Origin: a virus
Length of the DNA: 37,422 bases
Strand: one strand, 5' to 3'
Virus record (IMG/VR): IMGVR_UViG_3300020475_000051
Location: 1-37,422 of that record
Shown here: one piece after another, positions 1,457-5,888 of the stretch
Position numbering within the stretch: position 1 is the stretch's first letter
Layout of the letters: every line of letters starts with the position of its first letter
The notes under the pieces: model-generated
Databases searched by the model: none
The model's input: the letters and a program-made list of their open reading frames with translations, nothing else
What the model was told of the DNA's origin: nothing
Made by a program: the position numbers and the translations under genes

Positions 1457-1812
1457 TTTTTCTTCGCTCTTTTTTTAATGTTCATTAATTTTTTCTTTGC
1501 AGGAGGAGGTGCGTCATCATATCTATAGTTGGATGTTGGATTATTAATCAAGGGATCCGTTTCAATAATCTCTGCAAGATTATCGCTTAGATTGAATACA
1601 CGTTGTTCACTAGCATCAGAGTTACTACCCTGAAACTCATCCATTCTACTCTCCTTTTCTTCCTGTGATACATCATCTACTGTGTAGCGATCCCACATCT
1701 TTCCACCGTAGCCACACGTGCCACGCTTCTCCCTCTTTTCACAAAGACGACAGTATTTTTCACCCGTCTTCTTCTTTGCGGGAGGACACTTAAATTCGGA
1801 AAGTTTCTTCAT
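1453..1812 (-). CDS. Unknown basic protein with Cys cluster
   Basis: This 119-aa protein begins with a Lys- and Cys-rich segment containing KYCRLCEKREKRGTCGYG (residues ~19-36). Together with Cys9 this could bind a metal ion, although the spacing does not match a classical zinc ribbon. The middle is acidic and polar, and the C-terminus is very basic (PPPAKKKLMNIKKRAKKK). It could be a small nucleic-acid-binding or core protein. The ATG overlaps the TAA of the NMNAT-like gene and the stop overlaps the next gene, so it sits inside a tight operon. No homologue is recognised. Confidence 0.7.
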   Translation of the reverse strand: MKKLSEFKCPPAKKKTGEKYCRLCEKREKRGTCGYGGKMWDRYTVDDVSQEEKESRMDEFQGSNSDASEQRVFNLSDNLAEIIETDPLINNPTSNYRYDDAPPPAKKKLMNIKKRAKKK

Positions 1813-2378
1813 TTAAAATTAGCAGGTAAGTTGCTCTTAATTTCCTTCATCAACCTCATACATTCTCCATCGCTTAATGCTTTAGGAATGCCTTGACGAA
1901 AGGCAGCAAAGTCTTCAGCAAATGCTGCACGTCTCATCTTAGTACCAGAGATAGCAAACGTATCACCGTCTGCATCACGATTACCAGAGGAAACAATGTC
2001 TAATTTTCTGAAGTAATAGTCCTTGCCATTATATTTATGAATCCACGCAAATGCAGAAACACGATCTGACCCAACAACTAGTGTTGCATCCTCATAACCT
2101 GCTGCTTGTATGTCCTGTAAGCATTCTATCACAGATTTTTGAGCACCGACGATGTTCTTAGCATAGCTAGGGAACATTTTTTTCATCCACTTGACTTTAT
2201 TGTCTGGTAACAGTGGATTTTTACCACTTTTATCTTGCGACTTTGATGTGTAGATCCTCCAGTCACATTTAGAAGCTGCTGTTTTGACCCCTTTTATGTT
2301 CTCCCCGTGTCCTGTGGTGGGTGGTTGGAACCTACCAAAGGTAAAGAAGCAACAATCGTATAGTTTTTCTAACGCCAT
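1809..2378 (-). CDS. Cytidylyltransferase-fold nucleotidyltransferase, NMN adenylyltransferase-like
   Basis: This 189-aa protein belongs to the HxGH nucleotidyltransferase superfamily. The N-terminal strand and loop read FGRFQPPTTGH (residues ~14-24), corresponding to the family's GRFQPxHxGH nucleotide-binding signature with TxGH in place of HxGH. The second signature, ISGTKMR (~143-149), matches the family's ISGTxxR. Both are seen in NadM-type nicotinamide mononucleotide adenylyltransferases, which make NAD from NMN and ATP. The substrate cannot be fixed from sequence, so NMN adenylylation is the best guess. It overlaps the ligase-like gene upstream by 10 bases, so the two are likely co-expressed. 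The missing first His should be considered when judging activity. Confidence 0.8.
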   Translation of the reverse strand: MALEKLYDCCFFTFGRFQPPTTGHGENIKGVKTAASKCDWRIYTSKSQDKSGKNPLLPDNKVKWMKKMFPSYAKNIVGAQKSVIECLQDIQAAGYEDATLVVGSDRVSAFAWIHKYNGKDYYFRKLDIVSSGNRDADGDTFAISGTKMRRAAFAEDFAAFRQGIPKALSDGECMRLMKEIKSNLPANFK

Positions 2379-3577
2379 TGCTTCTGAATAGTAAAGTTGT
2401 TGTATGCAAACTCAAGACGGTTAACCAGTTTGATCATATCACCATCTTGATGTAGTACATAACCCTCAGGTGTAGTAACCTTATATCCCTTCTCAGTTTC
2501 TACGTAAGTTCTAAATCTTTCTAGGTGATCTAGCTTGTCTATAATAAATTGCTTAACATCTTGGATCTCTTTATAGAGTTTCAACAACTGAGTAAAATTA
2601 GATTCGTTCTTGTCTAGGTACACTTCACTATCAAATACCAACTTACGCTTAACTGCAAGTGTCTTGGGAGTCTTGATCTTAGCAAGTTCCTTCTTCATCT
2701 TCACGTGATAGAACTCTATCAAGTTATCAAGTGCTTGACGTGGATTACCTATAGCTACACCTTGACGTACCTGACTATTAAAGAACTGCTTGAGATAACT
2801 AGCAACGTGCCACTTAGCTTCACCAGTTGTTCCAATGTTTTCCACAATATTATCGAGGAATTCCCCACAGTTTCCACAGAGGTGATCTATCCGTTGAATA
2901 TATTGCTCGAAAGTGGTACATTCTTGAGCCGTAAGGGTCACTTCATTGATAGGAGTGTCGTTAGATATGACTGCTACTTCACTAGCACGTGAGAATGTCT
3001 TAATAGGAGCACCAGCCATTGCTTGCATCTCTCCAAAAGTAGTACCACTGTAATGCGTATGGAATACTACACCAATCTTTGATTGCTTGACCTCTTTACC
3101 TATGTCGTGTTCCTGAGGTATTCCGTACGTAATAGTATTGGGTCTAAACGTATATAATTTCTCACCATCTACAGTCTCAGTCTTTAAAGTACTGTCTGTG
3201 TATAGTAAATCTCCTTGTACAACTCCTCTAATGTTCAACTTACTGAAGTAACGTAGAGAATACTTTAACTTCTCTGCTAGATCTCCCTCATAATATACAT
3301 CAACATCCTCTTCTGTGTAGCAAACCTTAGGTGCAGTCTTAGCAAAGACAGACTTAGTACCTACAAAGAACATACCACTGTTAGGATCAGTACCACATAC
3401 TACAGATGGTGCACCATCCCACTTGGTTTGTAAGAATCCTTTCGCACCAGCAGTCTTACCAAGCATCTTATATAATTCTTTCAGGAAAGCAACAGACGCA
3501 GCACAACCATCAGAACCATAGTTCAACATTTCATCTTCTAAGTGTTCAAGGTGTTTGAGTTGCTTTACATTAGCCAT
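2369..3577 (-). CDS. Ligase-like covalent nucleotidyltransferase (predicted from motifs)
   Basis: This protein is 402 aa from the chosen start (MANVKQLKH, ATG at 3577). An in-frame ATG at 3604 would add nine residues but overlaps the upstream gene more. The segment LQTKWDGAPSVV carries KxDG (Lys about residue 52), the motif I signature of DNA/RNA ligases and mRNA capping enzymes, where Lys accepts the nucleotide. IRGVVQGDLLYT at ~115-126 fits motif III. PEGYVLHQD followed by IKLV near the C-terminus resembles motifs IV and V. Between them lies an unusually long, mainly helical insert of about 150 residues. The motif match is mine; the substrate (DNA, RNA or other) is unknown. The operon partner downstream is the NMNAT-like gene. 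Confidence 0.7.
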   Translation of the reverse strand: MANVKQLKHLEHLEDEMLNYGSDGCAASVAFLKELYKMLGKTAGAKGFLQTKWDGAPSVVCGTDPNSGMFFVGTKSVFAKTAPKVCYTEEDVDVYYEGDLAEKLKYSLRYFSKLNIRGVVQGDLLYTDSTLKTETVDGEKLYTFRPNTITYGIPQEHDIGKEVKQSKIGVVFHTHYSGTTFGEMQAMAGAPIKTFSRASEVAVISNDTPINEVTLTAQECTTFEQYIQRIDHLCGNCGEFLDNIVENIGTTGEAKWHVASYLKQFFNSQVRQGVAIGNPRQALDNLIEFYHVKMKKELAKIKTPKTLAVKRKLVFDSEVYLDKNESNFTQLLKLYKEIQDVKQFIIDKLDHLERFRTYVETEKGYKVTTPEGYVLHQDGDMIKLVNRLEFAYNNFTIQKQWR

Positions 3578-4757
3578 TATCGTGTGCGTCCTCCTCTGCG
3601 TCACCTGGAAATTTGGTCATAATGCTTTCACCTTTCATCTTATATCCTGACTGTAGCTTGTCTGGATACACACGATCTGGATCTGCTTTACTTCCCTTAT
3701 CAGATGTGTTTCTGATGTTAAAAGCCATATCCAATAATGGTGTTGTTAAGTTTATATTAACACGTTTTGCCCCTCCTGTGTTACCACCGTATGCCACTTT
3801 GACACCTGACGCAACGGAGGCAGCATTTAGAAATCTTTCATCAATTTCTAGATGATGTATGTGGCCACCGTGTAGATGGACATAATGATATCCCCAACCA
3901 AGAGATCCTTTAATCAATTCCTTAAGTAAGTTACGGTCATAGCTAGGAGCATTATCAATCTCGTGGAAGTTACGGTTACCTGCTTGGAAGTTATTAAAGG
4001 TTTCGCAAAGTAGATCTTGCTTTAGACCGAATGTTTTAATCAATGCTAGACCTGCTTCAGTGGTAATACTACCTGCTTTAACTTGATCTACAGGGAACAC
4101 GTTGGTCTTAAGACCTAAGTTAGATAGGTTTGTGGTACCACTTGTCTTTAGTGACAGATATGTATTCCTTTCTTGCTCCCCCTTACACTGTGTCACCAGT
4201 GTTACGTCAGTAACAGTTGCACCAATATTATATCCTTTAGTTGGTGAAGCACCACCTATCTGCCAATGACCATTAACAATTTTCATTGGTCTTTTCTTGT
4301 TCTCAGCACCTTCAGGTACTACTCTCAATGCTGTACACTTCTCCAAACCATAATGATCTACAAGACCAAAGATAAAATTTCTATACTTATTACTCTTTAG
4401 ATCATCTGGATTCTCAATCCAATCATTGAGTAAGTTCTCCATCTCTCTTTCAAAGAGACCACCTTGGTTTGCTGCTCCTCTATTTCCTCTACTACCATTA
4501 CCAAAGTCAGGTTGTAAATTTTTAATCTTCAACTGATTTTTAATTTCTCTGATCGTAAAAGTTCCTACTAGCTGTCTGCTAATCTTACATACACTTTTAT
4601 TACTTGGATCAAATGCAATAGGATCTGGTAGTATGTTTCCATACCTCTCTGTTAATACATTAAACAACCTAAGGGCTTCAGAAGCACGGGTTTGATCCAT
4701 ATGCTTGACTGCTTTACCTGCTTCTTCAAATGTTTTTGGTATTACATTGTATGCCAT
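3570..4757 (-). CDS. Unknown protein, possibly restriction-endonuclease-fold
   Basis: This 395-aa protein is not recognised. It has a helical N-terminus, then a Gly/Asn/Arg-rich loop (~87-100), then GLFEREMENLL (100-110), an Asp at 184 and YLSLKTSG (200-207). The order Glu in a helix, Asp, then xxK on a strand is reminiscent of the PD-(D/E)xK nuclease core with Ser in place of the usual acidic residue. This is a weak, motif-only argument. The C-terminal third is beta-rich (VKVAYGGNTGG, INLTTPLL, FNIRN). Its stop overlaps the start of the ligase-like gene by 8 bases. A late-promoter-like TCTAAATA lies only 6 bases before the ATG. Confidence 0.7.
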   Translation of the reverse strand: MAYNVIPKTFEEAGKAVKHMDQTRASEALRLFNVLTERYGNILPDPIAFDPSNKSVCKISRQLVGTFTIREIKNQLKIKNLQPDFGNGSRGNRGAANQGGLFEREMENLLNDWIENPDDLKSNKYRNFIFGLVDHYGLEKCTALRVVPEGAENKKRPMKIVNGHWQIGGASPTKGYNIGATVTDVTLVTQCKGEQERNTYLSLKTSGTTNLSNLGLKTNVFPVDQVKAGSITTEAGLALIKTFGLKQDLLCETFNNFQAGNRNFHEIDNAPSYDRNLLKELIKGSLGWGYHYVHLHGGHIHHLEIDERFLNAASVASGVKVAYGGNTGGAKRVNINLTTPLLDMAFNIRNTSDKGSKADPDRVYPDKLQSGYKMKGESIMTKFPGDAEEDAHDNG

Positions 4758-4762
4758 ACCAG

Positions 4763-4770
4763 TATTTAGA
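4763..4770 (-). promoter_or_regulatory. Possible late promoter (TCTAAATA) next to the ATG
   Basis: The minus strand reads TCTAAATA, matching the NNTAAATA form seen before the structural genes. It sits only 5 bases from the ATG at 4757, so a transcript starting from it would be leaderless or start inside the gene. That makes it weaker than the others. Confidence 0.3.
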
Positions 4771-4773
4771 GTA

Positions 4774-5079
4774 TTATTCTTCTATATCATACTCGATAAC
4801 TATCTTTTTACTTTTTCTTCCGACACTATTTGAAGTGTCCACTCGCTCAACACTACCACCTAGTTCAGCAGCAATACATAAGATCTCAGCAATCAGTTCT
4901 CCTTTGTCTACTGAATTAAAAGTATCTGCTATTTCTTCTTCAGGTCTTGGAATGTCGCAGTCCTTATAATCCTCAACACATTCTGTTTCACACTCTTTAT
5001 CGTTTGGAGGACAATCGGTAGTGCACTCCATAAGTTGATCAGTACAATCTAACTCTTCCTCCTTAGGTCTAAGTTTCAT
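4774..5079 (-). CDS. Small acidic Cys-rich protein, unknown
   Basis: This 101-aa protein is strongly acidic. The first half carries a run of cysteines: DCTDQLMECTTDCPPNDKEC, then ECVEDYKDC (Cys at about residues 11, 18, 22, 29, 33 and 40). The spacing suggests CxxxC pairs that could form disulfides or bind metal. The second half contains a helix (IAEILCIAAELGG) and a short basic stretch (GRKSKK) before an acidic end. It starts in an ATGA overlap with the oxygenase-like gene. No family is recognised, and no signal peptide is visible, so disulfides would have to form in the cytoplasm or after lysis. Confidence 0.65.
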   Translation of the reverse strand: MKLRPKEEELDCTDQLMECTTDCPPNDKECETECVEDYKDCDIPRPEEEIADTFNSVDKGELIAEILCIAAELGGSVERVDTSNSVGRKSKKIVIEYDIEE

Positions 5080-5888
5080 TTGAATACAGGAATAGGAACT
5101 AACTTGGTGTTAAAGAAATCTTTTGATCTCTCGAACACTGGATAGAATTGACATAAACCCTTCTCAGAGTGACATTGCTCTAGGGGCAACCAGTTAAGGT
5201 CATCTATAATATCATACCCTATACTAACACGGATTCCCTCATATGGCAAGGGCTTTACAGCGTGCATTAACGGACCTGGACCGATATACTGTAGTCCTTG
5301 CTTGTTAGGGATGACATATGGATACTCTTCAGCATCTAGTGGATGTTTAGTACGATCTTCTAGATCAAGGTATGCCAAAGTCTGTTCATCTCTCTCCTTA
5401 AAATCTCTTGGTATATCACTAGCAAACACAGTTTCTGTAGGTTTATCACTCAAGTGAATGAAACCGTGATACCTACAGTAGCTATGATTATGCCACCCCA
5501 AAGACATCTTACCCAACTCCTCATACTTATGTGCATTCATCCAAGCGTGTATCCACAATGGTTTAGTTTCTAATCCTGGATAGGATCTAATATTTTTAAA
5601 TACTTGGTTCCACAAATAAAAAAATTCTGGCATAGTGGATGAAAGTGTGATAATGTTATAAGCGTTCTTGCTCATAGACATATCCCATTCATCCCTACTA
5701 CCAGACATAGAAGACTCTGCTAATGGTTCAATATTTGATTTCCAGAGTCCGTAACAAGTACGTGCTTCAGTCAGTATTTCTTTCCAAAGCACATCAACAT
5801 CATATATCTTTACCAGATCCAATAAGTTATCACAATCATATGAAACTAGTCTTTGGGTACTCTCGTGCGATTCCCAATCTCCACTCAT
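5076..5888 (-). CDS. 2-oxoglutarate/Fe(II) oxygenase-like protein, long paralogue
   Basis: This 270-aa protein is predicted to have a jelly-roll fold like the putative 2OG-Fe(II) oxygenases common in marine phages. WHNHSYCRYHGFIHLSD (132-148) resembles the strand that begins the metal-binding site. MHAVKP followed by GIRVSIGYDI near residues 208-226 resembles the distal His and the Arg that binds 2-oxoglutarate. The exact HxD ligand is not obvious (HNH rather than HxD), so activity is uncertain. It shares order and wording of these blocks with the shorter protein at 15254-15820. It carries an extra ~30-residue insert (residues ~157-189) and a longer C-terminus. It is coupled to MazG upstream (ATGA overlap). 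Confidence 0.65.
   Translation of the reverse strand: MSGDWESHESTQRLVSYDCDNLLDLVKIYDVDVLWKEILTEARTCYGLWKSNIEPLAESSMSGSRDEWDMSMSKNAYNIITLSSTMPEFFYLWNQVFKNIRSYPGLETKPLWIHAWMNAHKYEELGKMSLGWHNHSYCRYHGFIHLSDKPTETVFASDIPRDFKERDEQTLAYLDLEDRTKHPLDAEEYPYVIPNKQGLQYIGPGPLMHAVKPLPYEGIRVSIGYDIIDDLNWLPLEQCHSEKGLCQFYPVFERSKDFFNTKLVPIPVFK

Follow-up and report, generated by a model that had tools for sequence, protein, structure and literature searches.

A variable nuclease-like gene behind a late-type promoter motif, beside a constant ligase-like and NMNAT-like gene pair in marine T4-like phages

What do three tightly packed genes of nuclease, ligase and nucleotidyltransferase type do together within the replication cluster of a marine phage? 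The question is raised by IMG/VR virus record IMGVR_UViG_3300020475_000051, of which the window, meaning the whole stretch of 37,422 bases analysed here, belongs to a T4-like phage close to cyanophages (Kyanoviridae). On its minus strand, the genes for DNA polymerase, UvsX, the gp41 helicase and a MazG-like protein are followed by a cassette encoding a restriction-endonuclease-like PD-(D/E)XK protein of 395 amino acids (3570-4757), a ligase-like DUF6267 protein of 402 amino acids (2369-3577) and a nucleotidyltransferase of 189 amino acids that resembles nicotinamide mononucleotide (NMN) adenylyltransferases (NMNATs; 1809-2378). The same three genes occur in identical order in Synechococcus phage S-RSM4. 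An earlier reading of the window sequence (the original prediction) had described these genes and their overlaps of 8 and 10 bases correctly, and had proposed a cassette for cutting, repair and cofactor supply, perhaps directed against host defences that deplete nicotinamide adenine dinucleotide (NAD) or cut tRNA. That observation is confirmed, and the interpretation is partly supported. The account tentatively preferred here, at somewhat less than even confidence, is a late operon combining a variable nuclease with a constant ligase-like and NMNAT-like pair, which would be delivered with the virion in some lineages and act on the nucleic acid of the host or of a competitor.

The first step is to establish what makes the cassette a unit. 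The original prediction argued from the overlaps that the genes are made together; overlap alone says little, because head-to-tail overlap is the rule in this genome, where most neighbours between 76 and 11,163 overlap by 1-23 bases, and it was rejected as evidence of linkage. A better mark of the unit lies upstream, where a gap of 16 bases precedes the nuclease-like gene and holds the T4-type late-promoter motif CTAAATA (4763-4769, minus strand), ending 5 bases before the start codon. The DUF6267 gene is taken to start at the ATG at 3577, preceded by AGGAGG; the mechanically called open reading frame begins further up, at a GTG at 3604.

This motif is a constant property of the locus in related phages. 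A sequence of the form [ACT]TAAATA lies within 120 bases upstream of the gene preceding DUF6267, here called the slot gene, at 232 of 233 loci, against a background of 6-8%. In the window's lineage 79 of 97 loci have the form CTAAATA, and among Melnitz-like phages TATAAATA is found at 36 of 39 loci. The nucleotidyltransferase gene hardly ever has such a motif before it (1 of 266, four main lineages). Within the window, only six of 44 genes carry it at most 50 bases upstream: the slot gene and the genes for tail sheath, tail tube, portal, a 97-amino-acid protein after the portal and a second tail-tube-like protein. The isolates S-RSM4, Syn9, S-SM1, HTVC008M and Melnitz all have it before the slot gene, and in S-PM2, where no slot gene is present here, it precedes DUF6267. 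The sequence NATAAATA is the reported late promoter of cyanophage S-PM2 (PMC2984593), and CTAAATA is reported as that of the T4-like phage Aeh1 (PMC1524935).

The second step concerns the slot protein. Besides phrog_8438 it belongs to no known family. Its AlphaFold model (pLDDT, the predicted local distance difference test score, 81) has a sole significant Foldseek match in the PDB, the restriction endonuclease MspI (1sa3; probability 1.00, E 7.8e-4), with 12% identity over the structural alignment and template-modelling scores of 0.31/0.43. Four residues are invariant across 30 relatives down to 28% identity: Glu103 (codon 4449-4451), an acidic residue in the helix before the core; Asp184 (4206-4208), presumed to bind metal; and Ser202 and Lys204 of the triplet Ser202-Leu-Lys204 (4146-4154). 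The acidic residues and the xK element of the expected active site are thus conserved, with serine in place of the usual E/D. The likeness to MspI extends to this feature, an aspartate with a non-acidic residue before xK; the active site of MspI uses NxK. The slot protein differs in being longer and in having no methylase partner. A PD-(D/E)XK, or restriction-endonuclease-like, fold is therefore well supported by the model, which bears out the original prediction on this point, and metal-dependent cleavage of nucleic acid is the predicted activity. Sequence searches of the PDB with the nuclease and DUF6267 profiles returned only coiled-coil or noise matches and were set aside.

The original prediction treated the nuclease as one part of a fixed trio. 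This is not supported: at other loci unrelated nuclease-like genes take its place, or none is present. Many families occur in the position upstream of DUF6267. In profile comparison the families numbered f1, f3, f4, f5, f7, f13, f14 and f18 group by chained matches and f2 pairs with f8, and for the window's family, f0, profile matches to the other slot families stay within noise. Searches of the slot families against Pfam and against the PADLOC defence models gave no match. Nevertheless, the pattern D...(S/N/E)xK characterises the families of about 260 of 263 non-helicase slot genes. When the f1, f2 and f4/f5 groups, which were judged by sequence motifs, were each aligned, E and D proved invariant and SxK conserved, following one another as they do in f0. 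The slot families thus appear unrelated in sequence, and most of them nuclease-like, with a shared E...D...SxK signature. One family, f9 (L312:1003-1848), has a classical D...ExK motif instead of SxK.

The third step is the manner in which these genes change places. Between pairs of loci whose DUF6267 proteins are 90-99% identical, the slot family differs in 219 of 644 cases. In one pair (L145/L146), with DUF6267 99.7% identical and flanks about 94-96% identical, homology ends 10 bases into the slot gene and returns near its stop codon. In two others it reaches about 100 bases (L272/L274, DUF6267 99.8%) or about 43 bases (L188/L189, DUF6267 98.5%) into the slot gene and is then absent until DUF6267. 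The proteins of L272 and L274 begin with a common leader, MSLRKSIRQLRPIQENFTAP(I/V)DKVQ(S/N)FLSE, and are wholly different thereafter, that of L274 being of the window's family. In two lineages, pelagiphage-like and Melnitz-like, the leader peptide is constant and the rest of the slot protein is swapped. Changes of slot family on the DUF6267 tree are close to those under shuffled labels in Melnitz-like (22 vs 22.4), pelagiphage-like (12 vs 11.7) and Syn9-like phages (8 vs 8.7). Some loci of Melnitz-like and pelagiphage-like phages have an empty slot, the helicase gene lying directly upstream of DUF6267. The slot gene is therefore exchanged between phages as a single cartridge, with homology breaking at the gene borders.

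Such exchange invites an explanation by location only, in which the slot is a hotspot for selfish nuclease genes, homing-like or serving phage exclusion, that lies by a late promoter, and the adjoining pair serves some other purpose, in the virion or in metabolism. The empty slots, the single-gene exchange with sharp borders and the random spread of families on the DUF6267 tree all fit this account. Against it, homing genes enter at recognition sites, and occupied sites alternate with empty ones, whereas here nearly all non-helicase genes in the slot are nuclease-like. The slot also includes a late promoter and, in certain lineages, a leader peptide as fixed parts, and the three genes are co-directional and tightly packed. 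It is considered unlikely, while retaining a real share of the probability.

The two genes beyond the slot form a constant pair. The original prediction proposed conserved co-occurrence as a check on the trio, and this is borne out for DUF6267 and the nucleotidyltransferase, with the nuclease as a swappable partner. The nucleotidyltransferase lies downstream of DUF6267 in 270 of 275 informative virus contigs; 15 other contigs with downstream sequence showed none, of which 10 end within about 2.1 kb, leaving 275 as informative. Separate halves of a single PHROG profile, phrog_455, match the two proteins, and in S-PM2 the end of DUF6267 runs straight into the nucleotidyltransferase, a single fused protein of 591 amino acids having been deposited. 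In NC_006820 this protein is split by a frame change into S-PM2p141 and p142 (L349:5026-6805); the intact fusion is found in another deposit. Among 50,697 phage records, DUF6267 occurs in 467 and the nucleotidyltransferase in 542, mostly cyanophages; jumbo phages also carry the nucleotidyltransferase, and no DUF6267 match was seen there. In E. coli jumbo phages (L111:3489-4540; LT603033, MW822008, ON286972), its relative adjoins a Dam-type DNA adenine methyltransferase, a different recurring partner. DUF6267 has 36 matches in cellular genomes, and all those with informative neighbours (gp43, uvsX, gp41) look like T4-like phage contigs, so there is no sign of a cellular DUF6267 system. Loci L353 and L351-L384, filed under bacterial or archaeal genomes, look like T4-like phage around the cassette; a 188-kb contig filed under Nonlabens xiamenensis is one example.

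The middle protein is assigned to DUF6267 with confidence (PF19782, E 2.6e-125; model pLDDT 88), and a literature search by that name found no paper. Its resemblance to covalent nucleotidyltransferases, namely DNA and RNA ligases and capping enzymes, is seen chiefly in motifs, assigned by eye, that run in the order of ligase motifs I, III, IV and V. Among 41 diverse sequences, the candidate nucleophile motif K52-W-D-G-A-P57 (3407-3424; KxDG) has K52, D54, G55 and P57 invariant, and the motif III position Q121-G-D123 (3209-3217; EGE/EGD in ligases) has Q121 and D123. The candidate motifs IV, E371-G-Y-V374 (2456-2467), and V, K383-L-V-N-R387 (2417-2431), have E371, G372 and V374, and K383 and R387, invariant. 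Among the PDB matches listed for the model, DNA ligase 4eq5 has the top probability (0.44, E 0.025), and against viral models about 12 RNA or DNA ligases and capping enzymes follow its own orthologues (E 0.2-0.8), an enrichment among weak matches. Carbonic anhydrase matches were dismissed as low-probability noise. DUF6267 differs from these enzymes in lacking profile similarity to known ligases and in having a large helical insertion between the presumed motifs IIIa and IV. A ligase-like nature, as originally predicted, is thus moderately supported by the ordered invariant motifs, with weak fold matches and no profile match, and the protein probably forms a covalent lysine-nucleotide intermediate.

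A constant pair, fused in S-PM2, beside a variable protein with a restriction-enzyme-like fold recalls restriction-modification, and the pair could produce or add a general nucleotide mark by which phage DNA is protected from any slot nuclease. No methylase is exchanged with the nuclease, which fits such a scheme and means that the protection must be general. The pair nevertheless persists at loci where the slot is empty, and a late promoter would be unusual for an enzyme at work during replication; this proposal is regarded as improbable.

The third protein falls in the nucleotidyltransferase family PF01467 (23.7 bits, cut-off 21; phrog_3041), and both of its HIGH-type domain motifs are invariant: F14-GRFQPPTTG-H24 (2307-2339), which binds nucleotide and has F14, G15, R16, P19, G23 and H24 invariant, and the C-terminal ISxTxxR-type motif ISGTKMRR (1929-1952), with S144 and R149 invariant. 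Its nearest NCBIfam and PDB families are NMN adenylyltransferases, the closest solved relative being the archaeal NMNAT MJ0541 (E 0.0059); the GRFxPxxxGH and SxTxxR motifs are shared with this enzyme and with NadR. Against the curated NMNAT models it reaches at best 23 bits, where the cut-offs are at least 127. The sequence comparison thus supports the originally predicted NMNAT-like character as nearest family, and the protein stays far below what the curated models demand. No match was found in plasmids. A small protein (L106:8905-9159; phrog_4808) carries the database name 'ribonucleotide reductase alpha subunit' and matches the C-terminal part of phrog_395, which is a nucleotidyltransferase family; the name looks like an annotation error.

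The restoration of NAD against NAD-depleting defences, put forward in the original prediction, draws on this nearest family and on the suggestion of NAD modulation by cyanophage authors (PMC9602691). It is weakened by the low scores against the NMNAT equivalog models and by the genomic setting. In a published survey every phage with NadM carries nicotinamide phosphoribosyltransferase (PMC9503650), whereas none was found (PF04095) in six related complete phage genomes, the window itself being a fragment; the locus therefore differs from phage NAD salvage, in which NadV accompanies NadM or NadR. The swappable nuclease would also be left without a role, and the late-type promoter means that an anti-defence function early in infection would need delivery by the virion. 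The NAD reading is accordingly held to be quite improbable.

Whether such delivery occurs is the fourth step. Virions of S-SM1 were found to contain the cytidylyltransferase T4-GC190, a cyanophage core protein (PMC3037559). It is the same gene as the nucleotidyltransferase of the cassette: in S-SM1 it bears the name SSM1_190 and follows immediately on the DUF6267 gene SSM1_189, and the pair is preceded by a slot gene with a TDIL...CSMKWG motif. The DUF6267 partner and the adjoining nuclease slot are not described in the literature examined. SSM1_190 begins with MKKFSAFLNEA, a T4-like capsid-targeting leader. Virions of S-SCSM1, S-CBWM1 and S-CREM2 also yielded related enzymes, with the caution in both papers that they were possibly carried over, not packaged (PMC9602691, PMC10665884). 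Leaders resembling the T4 capsid-targeting sequence (PMC9026906) occur on 15 of 15 distinct Syn9-type and 34 of 36 Melnitz-type nucleotidyltransferase N-termini, on 47 of 50 Melnitz-type DUF6267 N-termini and on 19 of 28 pelagiphage-type slot proteins, compared with 5-11% in shuffled sequence and 13-24% of other genes. These percentages are descriptive, as a first, stricter pattern missed the Melnitz-type nucleotidyltransferases and was then relaxed.

In T4, the leader is cut by the prohead protease and the internal proteins are injected with the DNA (PMC3012670, PMC9026906); these proteins are late, variable behind a conserved leader, and act against host enzymes (PMC3012670). The pelagiphage-like and Melnitz-like slots, with a constant leader and a variable body, resemble T4 internal head proteins (IPI, IPII, IPIII, Alt), and the motif at 4763-4769 supplies the late promoter that such a protein would have. 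They differ in that T4 IPI is a restriction inhibitor, whereas the slot proteins are restriction-endonuclease-like, in that the slot is tied to DUF6267 and the nucleotidyltransferase, and in that the window's lineage has no leader. Members with leaders in several lineages thus probably enter the head and are injected along with the DNA; for the window itself, packaging would be suggested only by the late motif and by homology.

DUF6267 and the nucleotidyltransferase might instead serve in the structure or assembly of the virion, any catalysis being secondary or lost. This would likewise account for the late motif, for the status of the nucleotidyltransferase as a core virion protein (PMC3037559) and for the head and structural genes that follow the cassette in Syn9 and S-RSM4. 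The invariance of candidate catalytic residues in both proteins speaks against it, and this role is thought highly improbable. Least probable of all is the RNA or tRNA repair against tRNA-cutting defences envisaged in the original prediction, which could appeal to the ligase-like motifs and to RNA ligases among the weak fold matches of DUF6267, and which is undermined by a nucleotidyltransferase not of the tRNA-repair type, by the late-type promoter, by the lack of any profile match of DUF6267 to T4 RNA ligase 2 and by six related genomes in which no RNA ligase of PF09414 is recognised, so that no known repair set stands beside the cassette.

The late-operon account tentatively preferred here can now be set out. 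In it, the cassette would form the start of a late operon inside the replication cluster of marine T4-like phages, in the order gp43-uvsX-gp41-mazG-slot-DUF6267-nucleotidyltransferase. The slot would supply a variable restriction-endonuclease-like protein, its gene exchanged as one cartridge, and the same operon would supply the constant DUF6267 (ligase/capping-like) and NMN-adenylyltransferase-like enzymes. Leader-bearing members of several lineages would probably be packed into the head and injected with the DNA into the next cell, where the nuclease probably cuts the DNA of the host or of a competing phage and the constant pair probably acts on nucleic acid ends, processing or protecting them. 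The identity of the nuclease would be under diversifying selection. That it is exchanged fast and with no cognate protector suggests that its target differs from host to host or among competing phages, and also that there is a general means of self-protection, which could be the constant pair. A sharper form of this account, a virion-delivered restriction kit in which the exchangeable endonuclease destroys host or rival DNA on entry and the universal pair protects or repairs the phage's own, is rather unlikely.

Several results weigh against the late-operon account. The nuclease fold is modelled for a single slot family, f0, and in the window's own lineage slot changes are rare on the DUF6267 tree (4 vs 15.8 shuffled). 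No methylase or immunity gene is exchanged together with the nuclease at swapped loci. The fold match of DUF6267 to ligases is weak (E about 0.02 in the PDB and 0.2-0.8 among viral models), hhalign profile comparison with T4 RNA ligase 2 gave nothing, and in the large-genome cyanophages ACG-2014f, S-CAM7 and S-SCSM1 a DUF6267-like gene lies far from the nucleotidyltransferase. As to delivery, the capsid-targeting-like leader is absent from all three window proteins, its pattern was refined after the sequences had been inspected, proteomics of S-PM2 lacks the nucleotidyltransferase, and virion detection may reflect contamination (PMC3037559, PMC10665884). As to timing, some S-PM2 genes with late-type motifs also have early promoters (PMC2984593), so that exclusively late expression of the cassette is presumed from the motif.

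The surroundings of the cassette add further genes. The overlapping run continues downstream through 1453-1812, 1244-1456, 957-1256 and 76-960. The first of these, on the minus strand directly after the nucleotidyltransferase, encodes a basic, cysteine-rich protein of 119 amino acids that starts MKKLSEF and is, from its position and composition, a possible internal head protein. Its relatives at other loci start MKSFKQFREECGC..., resembling short leader-bearing internal proteins. Between the MazG-like gene and the cassette lies a gene for a protein of 270 amino acids (5076-5888) with weak similarity to 2-oxoglutarate- and Fe(II)-dependent (2OG-Fe(II)) oxygenases.

Among the most abundant viruses are the marine T4-like phages that infect cyanobacteria, pelagibacteria and methylotrophs. 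The unexpected element in their replication cluster is a nuclease slot with a late promoter beside a constant enzyme pair, which hints at an undescribed weapon or counter-defence kit. The rapid exchange of the slot gene points to an arms race against hosts or among the phages themselves. The slot is also a source of numerous and diverse nuclease genes that are recognised by where they lie and not by resemblance, and it gives a direct route to asking what cyanophages inject.

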